64,000 nt of DNA from positions 124,001 to 188,000 of the forward strand of contig CACYXR010000001.1 in assembly GCA_902778455.1 (NCBI GenBank), written 5' to 3'. The position numbers and the translations under genes are program-made. Below the pieces are notes generated by a model. It was not told where the DNA came from. It saw only the letters and a program-made list of their open reading frames with translations, and did no database searches. Origin of the DNA: an uncultured Selenomonadaceae bacterium (lineage in GTDB: Bacteria > Bacillota > Negativicutes > Selenomonadales > Selenomonadaceae). Positions within the stretch are counted from its first letter, which is position 1. Every line of letters begins with the position of its first letter. Of this stretch, positions 57,573 through 64,000 are shown piece by piece.

Positions 57573-59240
57573 TTATCCTTGCTTTTCCTCTTCCTTCTCT
57601 TCCGAGAAGAAAATTCCCGCTTCTTTGATGATATCGAACATTTCCTTCTGGCTCGTGGACGTCATCAGCGTCTCGCGCTCCTTTTCCGTGAGCCGGGAGA
57701 CCGGCCCCGCCAGCGAGACGGAAAACTCCGACGCGCAGGATGCGCTAGTGCGGGCGCAGGAGCGTGATGCGACGTTTGCGTCCGCCTTTGTCTCTTCCCA
57801 CTTCTTCCCGACGACGCGGGGGGCGACGAAGGCGAAAATCTCCTTCGACTCGCCGCAGTTCTCGCGGAAGTAGCTGCCGTGGTTTCGATGCGCCTCCGGT
57901 GCGCAGCCGCCTCGGCAGATGAAGATGTACGGACAGGTCTGGCAGGGCTTCATCAGGTCCGCGGTGCGGGTGCGCCATTTCGCTTTCGAGAAGTTGAAGA
58001 AGAAGCGGCCCGCTTCCTCATCGGTGAAGCCCACGGCTTCCTCTTCCATCGCAACGAGGTCCCAGCAGGAATAGAGGAGCCCGTCGGGGGCGATGCAGAG
58101 CATTCCCTGCTCCGCGCCGCAGAAGGACGGCGCGAAGCTCGGATAGTCCTCCTGCTTCATGGCGGCGGTAAGGCCCTGCATGGGCATCGAATACTGGCTC
58201 TGCTTCCTGATGGCCTCCAGCGGCGGAATGCCCGCCGCAAGGATCGCGTCCATCACCTGCCGCTCCGTCACCTTCGTCGGCGAGTCGGCGGGCTCCGAAA
58301 CCGCCTTGAAGTAATAGGAGAACAAGCCTTTGCGCTTCGGTTTCGGCTTTCCGGCCTTCTTCGCCTCCTGCGCTTCCTTATACGCTTTTTCCCGTTCTTC
58401 CGGCGTGGCTTCCCGAAGTCCCCGGGCCGCTATATCGTCGATCAGCGCCTTGACGCCGCCGATATTATCCCCGTTCGTGTTCACCCGCAGGCTGATGTCG
58501 ACGCCGTGGTCGAGGGCAAGCTTCACGTTCTGCAGGATCTTGTCGTAGGTCGGCACGCCGTCGCGGTGCAGACGGCGGCAATCGTTGAGCGCGCCCACGC
58601 CGTCCACCGTGACCTGCAGCTGGGAGACCTCAAACTCTTCCAACAGGTCGATATAGGCGTCGAGGTCGTAGCCGTTGGTGATGCCGGAAAGGTCGAGGCC
58701 CATCGCTTTCGCGTGCTCGCAGATATTCCTGACCGTGTCTTTGTTTTCCTTCAAAAGCGGCTCGCCGCCGTAGAGCGAGACGTTGCCGATCTTATGGCCT
58801 TTGTCCCTCTGCTTTTGGAGCGCGGCGAAAACCGCCTCCACCATTTCCGGCTTCATCTCATGGCCGAGCCACTCCTGGCCGCGGGTCAGCCGATGCCGCT
58901 CGAAGCAGTACGGGCAGCGGAAGTTGCAGTTGTAAGTAGGCAGGATGACCGGTCCGGTGCCCGCGTGGCCCACCAGCTTGTTCCAGACGCGGCCGAGAAG
59001 TTTTGCGTCGGCCAGCTCGCCCTCCTCGTCCTTCCGCGTGATATGGCCGCGCACCATCAGCCGCTCCCGCAGCGCGAAGGGCAGCTTCACCAATTCGCCT
59101 TCGCGAAAGATTGCCGCCACCGATTCGTCCACTACGTCTATCGCGCCATAGAGGCCGTTGACGAGCAGCGCCTTTCCGGGGATTTCCTTGTCGTCTGTGC
59201 CGATCAGCGGCAGGATGATTTCGTAAGTACTGACTCTCAC
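57573..59240 (-). CDS. SPASM-domain radical SAM peptide maturase
   Basis: A 555-aa peptide-modifying radical SAM enzyme. The cluster motif is NCNFRCPYCFE (C105, C109, C112), then VSLYGGEPLLKEN. SPASM cysteines appear in SFCGAEQGMLC, LYSCWDLV, CQTCPYIFICRGGC and ENC. A charged insert (EATPEEREKAYKEAQEAKKA) and a Ser/Cys-rich tail are unusual. GTG 59240 is chosen because GGAGG lies 7 nt upstream. SPASM maturases often make thioether crosslinks on Cys-containing cores; that reaction is inferred here. Confidence 0.85.
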   Translation of the reverse strand: MRVSTYEIILPLIGTDDKEIPGKALLVNGLYGAIDVVDESVAAIFREGELVKLPFALRERLMVRGHITRKDEEGELADAKLLGRVWNKLVGHAGTGPVILPTYNCNFRCPYCFERHRLTRGQEWLGHEMKPEMVEAVFAALQKQRDKGHKIGNVSLYGGEPLLKENKDTVRNICEHAKAMGLDLSGITNGYDLDAYIDLLEEFEVSQLQVTVDGVGALNDCRRLHRDGVPTYDKILQNVKLALDHGVDISLRVNTNGDNIGGVKALIDDIAARGLREATPEEREKAYKEAQEAKKAGKPKPKRKGLFSYYFKAVSEPADSPTKVTERQVMDAILAAGIPPLEAIRKQSQYSMPMQGLTAAMKQEDYPSFAPSFCGAEQGMLCIAPDGLLYSCWDLVAMEEEAVGFTDEEAGRFFFNFSKAKWRTRTADLMKPCQTCPYIFICRGGCAPEAHRNHGSYFRENCGESKEIFAFVAPRVVGKKWEETKADANVASRSCARTSASCASEFSVSLAGPVSRLTEKERETLMTSTSQKEMFDIIKEAGIFFSEEKEEEKQG

Positions 59241-59267
59241 CGTCGTTCCTCCGTAACTCAAAATTGG

Positions 59268-59333
59268 CTATTTCAGCGTCTCGTCGTCGAGCTCCACATC
59301 GGCGAACTCCGCGATATACGCTCCGCCTCGTCC
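59268..59333 (-). pseudogene. Remnant of a Nif11-type leader
   Basis: Read on the minus strand with one base restored, this gives KDEAEAYIAEFADVELDDET, then LK and TAG. This matches the second half of the precursor leaders without the GG site or a core. It follows directly on the broken precursor at 59334-59560, its first codon overlapping that stop, which suggests unequal recombination between tandem precursor genes. Confidence 0.65.
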
Positions 59334-59560
59334 TTATTTCCAGTCGTCGCCGATGTAACCGCAGTTATGCCGCATATAGCATTCGAAAATGCCGCCCGCC
59401 GCATTCTCCAGCATCGCGTTGTCCAGCTCGAAGTCCGCCAGCTCGGCGAGGTACGCCTCGGCTTCTGCCTTCGTCATCTAGTAGCCCTCGGCCTCCGCCA
59501 GATTCAAGAGGTCATCGGCGGTCTTGCACTTCAGCGCCTTTTGCACCATTTCCTTGCCAT
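59334..59560 (-). pseudogene. Nif11-type precursor broken by a frameshift and an amber codon
   Basis: A good ribosome site (GGAGG) and ATG 59560 lead into a leader that has lost its first ~10 residues by a small deletion and frameshift. The leader then continues GKEMVQKALKCKTADDLLNL, is stopped by TAG at 59480-59478 (between Tyr and Met of GY-MTKAEAEAY), and resumes to AAGG. The core is IFECYMRHNCGYIGDDWK. Core and leader second half are otherwise well kept, so decay is recent. The Met right after the TAG has no ribosome site of its own. Confidence 0.75.
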
Positions 59561-59610
59561 TTTGGTGTCCTCCATTTATGCTTTATTGCACAATCTTTAT
59601 CCTCCCGTTG

Positions 59611-59844
59611 TCACATGGGGCCGTCCAGGGGGCATTCCGTGTAGCAACTGCCGCCAGCCACATTGGAAAGCGCCGCGTCGTCCAGCTCAAAGTCGTGTAT
59701 CTCCGCCATGTACGCTTCCGCCTCGTCCTTCGTCATGTCGTAGCCCTCGGTCTTCGCCGTCGCCATCAGCTCCTCGGCGGTCTTGCACTGCATTGCTCTG
59801 GCAATCATTTCTTTCGTGAGTCCGTTCCTGTTGATCTTTTTCAT
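59611..59844 (-). CDS. Nif11-type RiPP precursor with short two-Cys core
   Basis: A 77-aa precursor. The leader (residues 1-65) is nearly the same as that of the Hint-fused precursor: MKKINRNGLTKEMIARAMQC, then FELDDAALSNVAGG. The core after GG is SCYTECPLDGPM. AAGGAGG precedes the ATG. A 54-bp upstream element is shared with the small peptide gene at 62980. It is probably a substrate of the two downstream radical SAM enzymes. Confidence 0.88.
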   Translation of the reverse strand: MKKINRNGLTKEMIARAMQCKTAEELMATAKTEGYDMTKDEAEAYMAEIHDFELDDAALSNVAGGSCYTECPLDGPM

Positions 59845-59885
59845 TTTGATAGCCTCCTTGGGTATATGTTTTGAATTGCCTCTAT

Positions 59886-59939
59886 CTATTAATATAACAA
59901 ATCAGTCGCGCCAAAATTGACACGCTCGAAAAATTTTTC
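59886..59939 (-). promoter_or_regulatory. Shared upstream element of the precursor gene
   Basis: On the plus strand this stretch reads ACAAATCAG, 11 nt, TTGAC, ACGC, then GAAAAATTTTTC. The same blocks in the same order and with the same first spacing occur at 63052-63103 upstream of the small peptide gene. In the direction of transcription the end near the gene contains a TATATT-like -10. It may be a promoter with an operator; no regulator gene is in view. Confidence 0.6.
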
Positions 59940-59969
59940 TTTCAGCGACCAGGAGCAAGGACGCCTTGC

Positions 59970-60674
59970 TCACGCCACAGTTTTCCCTTGCAGTCCCTCG
60001 CTCCGTTCCCCTTTCGTGAAATAGCCCTCGGCGGCGACGCCCGCCACAAAGATGACGTCCTCGTCCTCTTCCTCCCCGATCAGCACATCATAGACGGGCT
60101 CGAAGGTGCCGGTAGGCTTTACGCTCGTCACGGTCGCCGTCGCGCCGCCCCGTTTCAACACCGTTTTTCCGAGGGCCTCTTTCACGGCGCAGTTCTTCTC
60201 GTGCCCAAAGTAGAGCGTCTGGCTTTCCGTCGTGCGCCAAACGGTTCCGTCGGAGAAGGCGACCTCGAAAATCTCCTCCGCCTGCGGCGTCATCACCTCC
60301 GTGACTGTGCCGACGATCTCATTTCCTTCCGCGTCCAGCGTAATCACTTTGTCGCCGACCTGCAAATCCTTGATGAGCTTTATGCCGCCCGGCACAGCCA
60401 CCTCGGAATCGCCCGTGAAGCAATGGGGGTGGGCAGGATTACATTCGTTGCCGTCGCACGTCATATTGGTATAGCAGGATCCCCCTGCCGCGCGCTCAAG
60501 CACTTCCTCCTCCAGCTCGAAGTCCGCCAGTTCCGCGATATACGCCTCCGCCTCGTCCCTCGTCATCTCGTAGCCCTCGGTTTCCGCCAGCTCCAAGAGT
60601 TTGTCGGCGGTCTTGCACTGCATTGCCTTCTCGATCATTTCCTTCGTGAGTCCGTTCTTGTTGATTTTTGTCAT
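59970..60674 (-). CDS. RiPP precursor with leader, core and C-terminal Hint domain
   Basis: A 234-aa fusion. Residues 1-65 are a Nif11-type leader ending RAAGG. Residues 66-84 are a core-like segment (SCYTNMTCDGNECNPAHPH) close to the neighbouring precursor core SCYTECPLDG. From Cys85 a Hint domain begins: CFTGDSEVAVPG, IKDLQVGDKVITLD, DGTVWRTTESQTLYF and VYDVLIGEEE. The block B position expected to be His is Gln (TESQ), and no terminal His-Asn is seen. Cys85 could form a thioester at the core C-terminus. The gene starts 21 bp after the phytase stop with AAAGGCGG upstream. Confidence 0.85.
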   Translation of the reverse strand: MTKINKNGLTKEMIEKAMQCKTADKLLELAETEGYEMTRDEAEAYIAELADFELEEEVLERAAGGSCYTNMTCDGNECNPAHPHCFTGDSEVAVPGGIKLIKDLQVGDKVITLDAEGNEIVGTVTEVMTPQAEEIFEVAFSDGTVWRTTESQTLYFGHEKNCAVKEALGKTVLKRGGATATVTSVKPTGTFEPVYDVLIGEEEDEDVIFVAGVAAEGYFTKGERSEGLQGKTVA

Positions 60675-60695: not shown

Positions 60696-61625
60696 TTATG
60701 CCGCTTCGGCTTCTTCTATCCATTCGCCCCATCGGAGCGTCGTTTCTCCCGCGTGCCTTGCCCGGACATATTCCGAAAATAGTTTCAACGTCTCCAGCCG
60801 CTGGACAATCCGCTCATTTTTCCACTCCTCGTCTTTCATGGCCGTTAGATCGGCGCCGCCGATCAGGTGCTGGCGCTCGATGATAGTCTCCGCGGGAATT
60901 CCCGGGTTGCGGATCATATCGTACATCGCCATGAACGTCGTCGTACGTCCGTGTCCGGCACGGCAGTGGAAATGGAGCCAGGCATCCCTGGGAAGCGAAT
61001 CGACAAAATCGAGAAACGCTTCGATCGTCTCCGTATCCGGCTGGGTCCTGTCCGTCACATAAAACCGCACATACCGGAACCCGATAGCTTCGACGACTTC
61101 TTTTTCCGTCTGCACATTCTGCGGGGCGAAGGTGACGGCTTCGACGCGGCCTTTGTCGGTCTTGCCCTTCGGCACAAAGGTCGTCGTAACCCCTGCGAGC
61201 TCGGCAAGACGTTCTTCCTCGTCCAGCGCGACTTCCTCCGGGGTCTTCCCTTCGTTGGCCAGATTGTTCTTCTTGTGCCAGCTCACGGGCAGCCCGTCCG
61301 CAAAACCGTGGGACTCCTGCCGCAGGTCCACATCGTAGATGGGCGCGCCGGGGGCGGCCGCCGCGGAAAGCTTTGTATACAGCGAGGCGAAGCCGGCGGC
61401 TGTGCACTGGGCGCTGCCCGATATGCGGAGATTGTCCAGTCCTTCGCGGGTGGGCGGCTCATCCTCCGGCGCCACGTGCCAGTCGTCGGAAGCCATGCGG
61501 AAATTGCGCGGCTCCGCAAGCTCCGGGTCTTCATCGAGCCGCCATTTCGCTTCCGAAACCGAAGCGGCAGTCAGCAGCAAAAGAGAAATCAAGAGGATCG
61601 TGGTCTTTTTCAGCAGGTTGCGCAT
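60696..61625 (-). CDS. Secreted cysteine phytase (PTP-like inositol polyphosphatase)
   Basis: A 309-aa exported enzyme: signal peptide LLKKTTILLISLLLLTAASV, then a protein-tyrosine-phosphatase-like fold. The P-loop is HFHCRAGHGRTT with nucleophile Cys221 and Arg227, and the general-acid loop is YVTDRTQPD (D192). This matches the Selenomonas/Mitsuokella PhyA group, which dephosphorylates inositol hexakisphosphate. The ATG is preceded by AGGAAAGGATC. It lies between a phosphoesterase gene and the leader-Hint precursor and may be co-transcribed with the latter. Confidence 0.88.
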   Translation of the reverse strand: MRNLLKKTTILLISLLLLTAASVSEAKWRLDEDPELAEPRNFRMASDDWHVAPEDEPPTREGLDNLRISGSAQCTAAGFASLYTKLSAAAAPGAPIYDVDLRQESHGFADGLPVSWHKKNNLANEGKTPEEVALDEEERLAELAGVTTTFVPKGKTDKGRVEAVTFAPQNVQTEKEVVEAIGFRYVRFYVTDRTQPDTETIEAFLDFVDSLPRDAWLHFHCRAGHGRTTTFMAMYDMIRNPGIPAETIIERQHLIGGADLTAMKDEEWKNERIVQRLETLKLFSEYVRARHAGETTLRWGEWIEEAEAA

Positions 61626-62803: not shown

Positions 62804-62980
62804 TCACGGCCTTGAAAACTTTCCGAAATAATCCGTTCCCCCGCGGGCCGCGGCCACTTCTTCCAATTCGTCCTCCGACAATTCGCGCTCCGCCAGCTTT
62901 ACCTGAATCTTTTGCCAAAGCCGCACTTCCAAGCTCGGATCGTCTGCGGCGAAATCCGCGCGCCGGAACAATTCATCCAT
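62804..62980 (-). CDS. Small GG-containing peptide, possible RiPP-type precursor
   Basis: A 58-aa product from ATG 62980, chosen for the near-perfect AGGAGGTG 6 nt upstream; an upstream ATG at 63025 also has AGGGAG. The sequence is acidic and helical (DPSLEVRLWQKIQVKLAERE), then LSEDELEEVAAARGG, like the end of a double-Gly leader, then TDYFGKFSRP. It shares a conserved upstream element with the precursor gene at 59844. No Cys is present. It could instead be a small regulatory protein. Confidence 0.6.
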   Translation of the reverse strand: MDELFRRADFAADDPSLEVRLWQKIQVKLAERELSEDELEEVAAARGGTDYFGKFSRP

Positions 62981-63051
62981 CCCGCGCACCTCCTCCGATT
63001 CCCGTTCTCTGTTTTTCCAAATCATTTCGCATTCTCCCTTCTCTTTCTACT

Positions 63052-63103
63052 CTATAATACAAATCAGCGGGAAAAAAATTGACGCGCTTTGAAAAATTTT
63101 TTC
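63052..63103 (-). promoter_or_regulatory. Second copy of the shared upstream element
   Basis: Plus strand ACAAATCAG, 11 nt, TTGAC, GCGC, then GAAAAATTTTTTC, matching 59886-59939 block by block. On the minus strand TATTAT lies near the gene-proximal end and may be the -10 for the small peptide gene. Confidence 0.6.
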
Positions 63104-63111
63104 CAAAAAAA

Positions 63112-63127
63112 TGTTTCACGTGAAACA
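63112..63127. promoter_or_regulatory. parS: parS site 1 (ParB/Spo0J-binding)
   Basis: TGTTTCACGTGAAACA, an exact match to the conserved 16-bp bacterial parS. ParB loads here and spreads or slides to organise the chromosome near the origin. It lies in the intergenic region between the divergent small peptide gene and the permease gene. Confidence 0.9.
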
Positions 63128-63149
63128 ATCGAACAAAACATGAAAGGGT

Positions 63150-63203
63150 TTTTCAGACTATGTTCTATTGTTTCACGTGAAACAATAGAACATAGTCTGA
63201 AAA
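63150..63203. promoter_or_regulatory. parS: parS site 2 inside a 54-bp perfect palindrome
   Basis: The centre 63169-63184 is again TGTTTCACGTGAAACA. Both arms continue the symmetry without a mismatch for 27 bp each (63150-63176 against 63177-63203), with flanks CAGACTATGTTCTAT and ATAGAACATAGTCTG. The 24 bp from 63112 and from 63169 also form a direct repeat with one difference. There is no T-run after it, so a terminator is unlikely. The extra arms go well beyond what ParB needs. Confidence 0.9.
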
Positions 63204-63404
63204 TATTCTCACATTTTCGCTGCGCTGCGGATTTCTTTTTCGTTGCAGGTCAAATATGTGGCGGACGCGGGTATTTTATGATAAAATCTAAGGACGGATG
63301 GGCGTTTTGTCTTTTCTCCGAAAGATGCTCCGCCAAACCGTTCCGAACGCTTTCGTGATCGGAGCGGCGGTTATATCACTTATCCTTGAAACGAGGGGTT
63401 TCAA
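63204..63404. other. Leader region of the permease gene
   Basis: About 200 bp with no gene. A TAAAAT at 63282-63287 could be a -10 box for the permease gene, but no clear -35 or riboswitch fold is recognised. Confidence 0.3.
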
Positions 63405-64000
63405 ATGGACAATCCGAATGATATAAAACCGAGCGGCCCCGGGCTTGCCCGTTATCTTTCCCCTGTCGCCGTCTGGGCGCTTTCCTTCGGCTGCGCCGTG
63501 GGATGGGGCGCGTTCGTCATGCCGGGAACGACTTTCCTGCCGATTGCCGGACCTGTCGGAACGACCATCGGACTTTTCATCGGCTCGCTTGCCATGCTCG
63601 TCATCGGCTGGAACTATATCGCGATGATGAAGAAATACCCGGACGCGGGCGGCACCTTTTCCTACACCAAGCATATTTTCGGCTACGACCACGGCTTTTT
63701 CAGCGCCTGGTTCGTCACATTGACCTATATCGCGATTCTTTGGGCGAACGCCACCGCGCTGGTGCTTTTGGCGCGAAATCTTCTCGGCGGCGCATTCCAA
63801 TTCGGGTTTCATTACAGTTTCGCGGGCTACGACGTCTGGCTCGGCGAGATCCTGCTTTCCGACGCAGCCATTATTCTTTTCGGCGCGCTGGTCATAGGCG
63901 GCAAGCGGCTGGCCGCGCATACGCAGACGATTTTCGCGTTCCTGCTGCTGGGCGGCATTCTCGTCGTCTTCGGCGCGACGCTGGCGACGCACCGGGATTT
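63405..64000 (+). CDS. APC-type amino-acid permease (partial)
   Basis: The frame opens at ATG 63405 (GAGGGG upstream) and runs off the window edge after 198 codons. The start MDNPNDIKPSG leads into helices of the amino acid-polyamine-organocation family: LSPVAVWALSFGCAVGWGAF with the unwound Gly-rich first helix, then LPIAGPVGTTIGLFIGSL and YPDAGGTFSYTKHIFGYDHG. At least five membrane spans are visible. The substrate cannot be stated. Confidence 0.85.
   Translation, partial: MDNPNDIKPSGPGLARYLSPVAVWALSFGCAVGWGAFVMPGTTFLPIAGPVGTTIGLFIGSLAMLVIGWNYIAMMKKYPDAGGTFSYTKHIFGYDHGFFSAWFVTLTYIAILWANATALVLLARNLLGGAFQFGFHYSFAGYDVWLGEILLSDAAIILFGALVIGGKRLAAHTQTIFAFLLLGGILVVFGATLATHRD

Follow-up and report, generated by a model that had tools for sequence, protein, structure and literature searches.

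Why would an intergenic region of an uncultured Selenomonadaceae bacterium hold two exact copies of parS, one of them buried in a long perfect palindrome? The window analyzed here is a whole stretch of 64,000 nucleotides, C1:124001-188000 of genome G000 (2.60 Mb, 34 contigs).

The parS pair and its palindrome

Both sites in the window are exact copies of the 16-mer TGTTTCACGTGAAACA and match the 16-bp parS consensus TGTTNCACGTGAAACA, with a center-to-center distance of 57 bp (Table 1). A scan of the 64 kb allowing up to two mismatches returned no further parS match. The second site is enclosed by a perfect inverted repeat of 54 bp with 27-bp arms, which is the longest perfect palindrome of the window and its sole one of at least 18 bp; as a single strand it folds at -24.4 kcal/mol, compared with a mean of -3.9 for shuffled sequences (z -12.4). 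Part of the flank recurs after the first site (ATCGAACAAAACATGAAAGG vs ATAGAACATAGTCTGAAAA), and the whole arrangement sits in a 379-bp region between divergent genes. The sequence-only reading had described the spacing of the two sites, the mismatch-free arms and the repeated flank, and on each of these points it was correct.

Table 1. Features of the parS-bearing intergenic region, in window coordinates
Feature	Position	Strand	Basis
First exact parS (TGTTTCACGTGAAACA), at the core of a repeat unit	63112..63127	.	
Conserved arm, first unit (ATCGAACAAAACATGAAAGG; family consensus outward from parS, WWMGAACATAACMTGAAAA)	63128..63147	+	consensus over 132 units
Left arm, second unit (TTTTCAGACTATGTTCTAT), oriented toward the first unit's arm	63150..63168	-	
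Second exact parS	63169..63184	.	
Right arm, second unit (ATAGAACATAGTCTGAAAA); mirrors the left arm exactly, including the private AGTCT variant	63185..63203	+	
Perfect 54-bp palindrome (parS with an arm on each side)	63150..63203	.	
57-bp segment (parS + arm + arm), missing at the orthologous G005 locus	63112..63168	.	L007 vs L090
Intergenic region bearing the repeats, between divergent genes	63026..63404	.	ORF list, gene prediction
Small flanking ORF, 73 aa, without family match; start side conserved in G005	62804..63025	-	
Flanking amino-acid permease gene, continuing beyond the window	63405..64000	+	weak matches to amino-acid permease models

Elsewhere in the window, positions 57573-60674 hold a Radical SAM/SPASM-like protein beside two Nif11/NHLP-type leader peptides, by eye a probable RiPP cluster. 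Positions 60696-61625 encode a PTP-like phytase-type protein with an HCRAGHGRT motif, whose top NCBIfam match, XopH, scores far under the cut-off.

A dispersed unit around parS

Genome-wide, TGTTTCACGTGAAACA occurs in 52 exact copies, where composition predicts 0.0007 for 2.6 Mb, and a reversed-pattern control gave no match. Eight of these sites form canonical-looking parS clusters on C9, C27 and C31: one adjoins parA-parB on C9, a contig that also carries gyrA, and the other seven belong to C27 and C31, contigs on which doublets at 34-bp spacing flank a GAACNNNTGTTC-like box. The same doublet architecture is present in G004, G005 and G009. Just upstream of parA (C9:145486; locus L124 around 5487), the parS abuts GAACATATGTTC, identical to the Gram-positive SOS-box consensus; the box between the two parS of the native doublets, GAACNNNTGTTC, is looser. 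Both LexA control and a role as ParB half-sites are possible for these boxes.

The remaining 44 exact sites are scattered rather than gathered around oriC and parAB. They occupy about 31 intergenic loci on 20 contigs that make up 1.67 of the 2.60 Mb, a count of loci and contigs that includes two units with a one-mismatch parS (C20 and C3). Because sites of the same type cover contigs of this extent, a parS in the window is uninformative about distance from the origin, and the earlier suggestion that the window is origin-proximal is not supported; parA-parB and gyrA lie on C9. Seven large contigs (~0.81 Mb) without sites looked like a terminus-like site-free zone, a candidate that we rejected: when 31 loci were dropped at random over the contigs, an equal empty length arose in 14% of simulations, and the spread of loci over contigs is compatible with chance (P 0.14). 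A search for the B. subtilis-type dif pattern, intended to locate the terminus, gave no match, and a comparison with gene positions in two complete genomes of the family showed gene order too scrambled between genera for either the contigs or the window to be placed.

Upon alignment, the scattered sites share a 54-bp unit with the consensus TTTTCATTTTATTTTCAKGTTATGTTCKWW-TGTTTCACGTGAAACA-TTTTTTCG, in which an exact parS has an AT-rich, asymmetric arm (~30 bp) on one flank and a short run of T on the opposite flank. Across 132 units from G000 and its congeners, conservation extends from -30 to about +23 around parS and little further out; these units were chosen for an exact parS and partly for the arm, which confines the information to the outer limits and to positions that were not selected on. 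Counting in both directions is less affected by this choice. An exact parS lies at a fixed distance from 34 of the genome's 37 exact arms, and the other three adjoin a one-mismatch, a three-mismatch and an interrupted site, respectively; conversely, the exact arm is present at 34 of the 44 exact dispersed parS. These counts identify the arm as part of the unit and parS as its most constrained part. Thus the repeated flank, which the sequence-only reading had proposed to look for around other parS sites, is a real conserved feature common to dozens of them.

By gene prediction, the units are intergenic, except for three inside weak, low-scoring predicted ORFs, and the genes that flank them are unrelated in function (DeoC, prephenate dehydratase, LpxB, peptidyl-tRNA hydrolase, a GGDEF protein and others). 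Taken singly, the units lack symmetry and have none of the terminal inverted repeats of DDE-type MITEs. No target-site duplication could be defined in the empty-site alignments, and the scanned genes flanking units include no transposase, only a PD-(D/E)XK (Rpn-type) gene on C12. A parS unit stands on either side of this gene, and the near-identical 3' flanks of the two units mark a local duplication (C12:4763-6177; L020), which gives no explanation for the family as a whole.

Besides single units, there are direct pairs, most with a spacing of 119-142 bp, and facing pairs with a spacing of 56-57 bp; the facing pairs at this spacing number five, and the direct ones are far more numerous. The direct pair forms a recognizable composite of ~185 bp that recurs at non-orthologous loci and encloses a hairpin. 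In the ~131-bp doublets, 75.8% of the cells of this hairpin are paired, compared with at most 51% in slid controls, and its covariation score of 0.225 was reached in 17 of 500 shuffles; pairing and covariation together are suggestive of a conserved hairpin but do not prove one. In G001, one locus has a composite with the spacer that belongs to the composite of another locus, whereas G000 and G002 agree with each other there, which suggests sequence exchange among copies. Other repeats meet the units as well. A second MITE-like family of ~150 bp, ending in ...CTTATTCAGTGGTTCCTTAA, directly adjoins several parS units (C22:5763, C9:88862 and C27:4397; L031, L014 and L035), and a further repeat (AGGGGATGTCGCAACCCC...GGCGGAATGGA) stops exactly at parS at unrelated loci (C21:162 and C27:4363; L075). 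Since this repeat ends exactly at parS at unrelated loci, parS seems to serve as a recombination junction between repeats.

Turnover of copies and origin of the palindrome

Among 84,980 species scanned, the arm-plus-parS pattern occurs only in rumen Selenomonadaceae of one Schwartzia-like genus, several members of which are named Schwartzia in public records. Genomes searched from other genera of the family and class contain at most two exact parS each. Congeners mostly have 19-31, with none in G006 and G008, four in G009 and 20-21 in G003 and G010. On a ParB tree, several forks of which have weak support, G006 and G008 branch first, then G009, then G003 and G010, and then the rest (19-52 copies); copy number climbs along this tree from 0 to 4 to 19-52. 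A phage or plasmid origin of the repeat was rejected, as the pattern was absent from IMG/VR viral contigs and a similarity search of plasmid records gave no match.

The turnover of individual copies was assessed by searching the coding flanks of 27 loci in three congeners and comparing the orthologous regions, which were not chosen for parS. Units of G000 were recovered from 5 of the 20 G007 loci, 1 of the 17 G003 regions and 0 of the 19 flank-searched G009 loci, and one further locus shared with G009 brings that last count to 1 of 20; presence and absence were scored on fragmented draft genomes, and many of the absences are supported by just a single conserved flank. At empty orthologous loci with both flanks conserved, the intergenic region is ~70-340 bp shorter (187 bp occupied vs 9 bp empty at C15:13 kb, 355 vs 37 at C18:53 kb, 190 vs 15 at C6:2.7 kb). 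From these shorter empty loci, the copies behave as mobile repeats, and the small number of units recovered at orthologous positions points to fast gain and loss. The guess that the arms mark a former mobile insertion thus came close to what the comparison returned. Where parS was reached through its flanks in G007 and G003, 9 of 10 sites are exact, while the coding flanks are ~72-94% identical. The only dispersed unit common to G009 is that at C11:7146 and its orthologues (L019, L099, L155); its neighbors in the G000/G001 lineage are small toxin-antitoxin-like genes and a 118-bp stretch that is duplicated.

The palindrome itself has a more local history. At the orthologous locus of the sister species G005, identical intergenic flanks surround one parS and one right arm. 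The window is longer by 57 bp, consisting of a parS and two arms, and the difference is bounded exactly at parS (L007 vs L090); the same picture would result had G005 lost the segment through recombination of two parS copies. The AGTCT variant of the window's right arm is missing from G005 and is mirrored exactly in the left arm. Because this private variant occurs in both arms, we infer that one arm was copied in mirror image across the palindromic parS, probably by template switching at a hairpin. The palindrome is therefore best explained, judging from these alignments, as a recent local derivative and not as an ancestral cruciform device. Among ~160 sites scored, arms flank parS on either side only at the window site and at those of two further loci, one in G010 and one in G002. 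The cruciform that the sequence-only reading had proposed is possible for the copy in the window, but it is no general property of the family.

Taken together, the family has spread within the genus by gaining new copies at new intergenic positions in the manner of REP or MITE elements, with exchange between copies; some of this spread may come from recombination between copies rather than from transposition. We consider it probable that the pair in the window belongs to this dispersed REP/MITE-like intergenic repeat built around parS, and that ParB would load on it chromosome-wide.

ParB and the meaning of scattered sites

The genome has a single ParB-family (ParB_N) gene, accompanied by parA and with a parS beside it, and a full-length SMC. 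In alignment, the protein retains the N-terminus that stimulates ParA, the GERRLRAAK and ENVQREN motifs, the CTPase motifs in intact form and a helix-turn-helix of the parS type, the features of a cognate chromosomal ParB specific for parS. In more remote members of the class, ParB is accompanied by a Noc-like paralogue, which is missing here; the only ParB_N protein is of the ParB type, and the site is parS and not NBS. Because the 16-mers equal native parS, ParB should nucleate at each of them and slide away as a clamp. The parS sites of the units are probably functional. This single canonical ParB would most likely recognize all copies and load as a CTP clamp, and ParB, possibly with SMC, would be seeded over much of the chromosome, not just near the origin. 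A protein other than ParB could also read the 16-mer.

The family resembles several known systems and departs from each. It has in common with chromosomal ParABS a 16-mer that matches the consensus exactly, a single canonical ParB, a parS next to ParA and the presence of SMC, but it has 52 sites, 44 of them scattered with a conserved arm; high chromosomal examples in a review are 20-23 sites near oriC (PMC7333895). Like the Noc/NBS system, it places tens of exact ParB-family palindromes over the chromosome (PMC4726725), ParB binding here being predicted; by contrast, the sites are parS rather than NBS, there is no Noc gene, and ParB has a ParA-type N-terminus. Short, palindromic, extragenic and dispersed sequences that occur as singlets and as doublets at preferred spacing, with a hairpin between doublet members and some compensatory change, are typical of REPs and REPINs (PMC3116915). 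Our units likewise are extragenic dispersed palindromic repeats in doublets, and their organization overall is REPIN-like in part: the core is a full parS, and the commonest doublets are direct, whereas those of RAYT-associated REPINs are inverted. Scattered off-origin ParB binding at many sites is also known from P. aeruginosa (PMC10419367), to which the binding predicted here is comparable, although those sites are 7-bp half-sites, neither a full parS nor a repeat element. In the open-access papers searched, we found no report of parS within a dispersed repeat family.

Some readings of the pair leave out mobility altogether. An ordinary origin-proximal parS pair with a cruciform would account for the canonical sequence and for a palindrome that could extrude; it is extremely improbable, given 52 exact sites over more than 20 contigs, parAB and gyrA on a different contig and a sister species without the palindrome at the same locus. 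Were the 16-mer a transcription-factor operator and its copies a regulon, the many copies upstream of genes would be expected, yet gene contexts are mixed (convergent, divergent and tandem), neighboring genes are functionally unrelated and the 16-mer equals parS, leaving this reading very improbable. Transcription terminators or RNA hairpins are suggested by the T6 that follows parS and by the above-control pairing within the ~131-bp doublets, but the parS stem is short and A+T-rich, a terminator scan makes no call on it, and a terminator has no need of exact 16-bp identity; an Rfam search of the units returned no family at gathering score, its miRNA matches being the palindrome itself. We regard this explanation as quite improbable.

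More weight falls on what maintains the dispersed repeat. The host may have selected the sites for a chromosome-wide task of ParB, such as Noc-like division control or distributed SMC loading, with mobility merely supplying them. This tentative reading draws on parS being the most constrained part of the unit, with decayed copies rare beside the 34 of 37 exact arms that keep an exact site, on the exactness of flank-recovered sites in G007 and G003 despite their diverged coding flanks, on the single ParB-family gene where distant class members have a Noc-like paralogue, and on a site number near that of B. subtilis Noc (~70 14-bp palindromes) and E. coli SlmA (24-52) (PMC4726725). It is weakened by unit positions that are poorly conserved among species, by the random-looking contig distribution, and by a ParB that keeps its ParA-type N-terminus and is without the amphipathic N-terminal helix of Noc (PMC7333895). 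Equally tentative is a repeat that is selfish alone, a REPIN/MITE-like element that took parS as its recognition palindrome, with any ParB binding as a side effect. The doublets, extragenic sites, fast turnover and fixed-spacing direct and facing pairs do resemble REP doublets and REPINs (PMC3116915). Recent copying or gene conversion, instead of selection, could account for the high identity of parS from copy to copy. Against a purely selfish repeat stand the identity of its core with the host's own parS and the cost of such sites elsewhere. Caulobacter tolerates an additional parS cluster in the ~500 kb around the native cluster, whereas mid-arm positions are disfavored (PMC5815017), and P. 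aeruginosa needs parS within a ~650-kb zone around oriC (PMC5098823); in these species, segregation or fitness suffers when a full parS is placed far away from the native cluster (PMC5815017, PMC5098823). Because off-origin parS is costly there, dozens of intact sites would be expected to be purged or mutated unless they are neutral or useful.

These position limits imply that the host genus has either relaxed the constraint or uses the scattered sites. It is possible, although we hold it to be rather unlikely, that in this Noc-less lineage a mobile full-parS repeat made the centromere chromosome-wide, with ParB acting in nucleoid occlusion, SMC seeding or both. Noc and SlmA set a precedent, as each shows nucleoid occlusion being served by palindromes scattered in tens of copies (PMC4726725). 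Because the spread over contigs looks random (P 0.14) and positions are poorly conserved, a selfish REPIN-like repeat stays equally possible as a functional role of the nucleoid-occlusion type. Other bacteria have a small number of parS sites close to the replication origin. Why parS stays clustered is an open question in a review of the field (PMC7333895). With its tens of intact, scattered parS and its close relatives at 0, 4, 20 and 52 copies, the genus is a natural experiment on this confinement, and dispersal of the site by a repeat offers a plausible route to a scattered binding network such as that of Noc.
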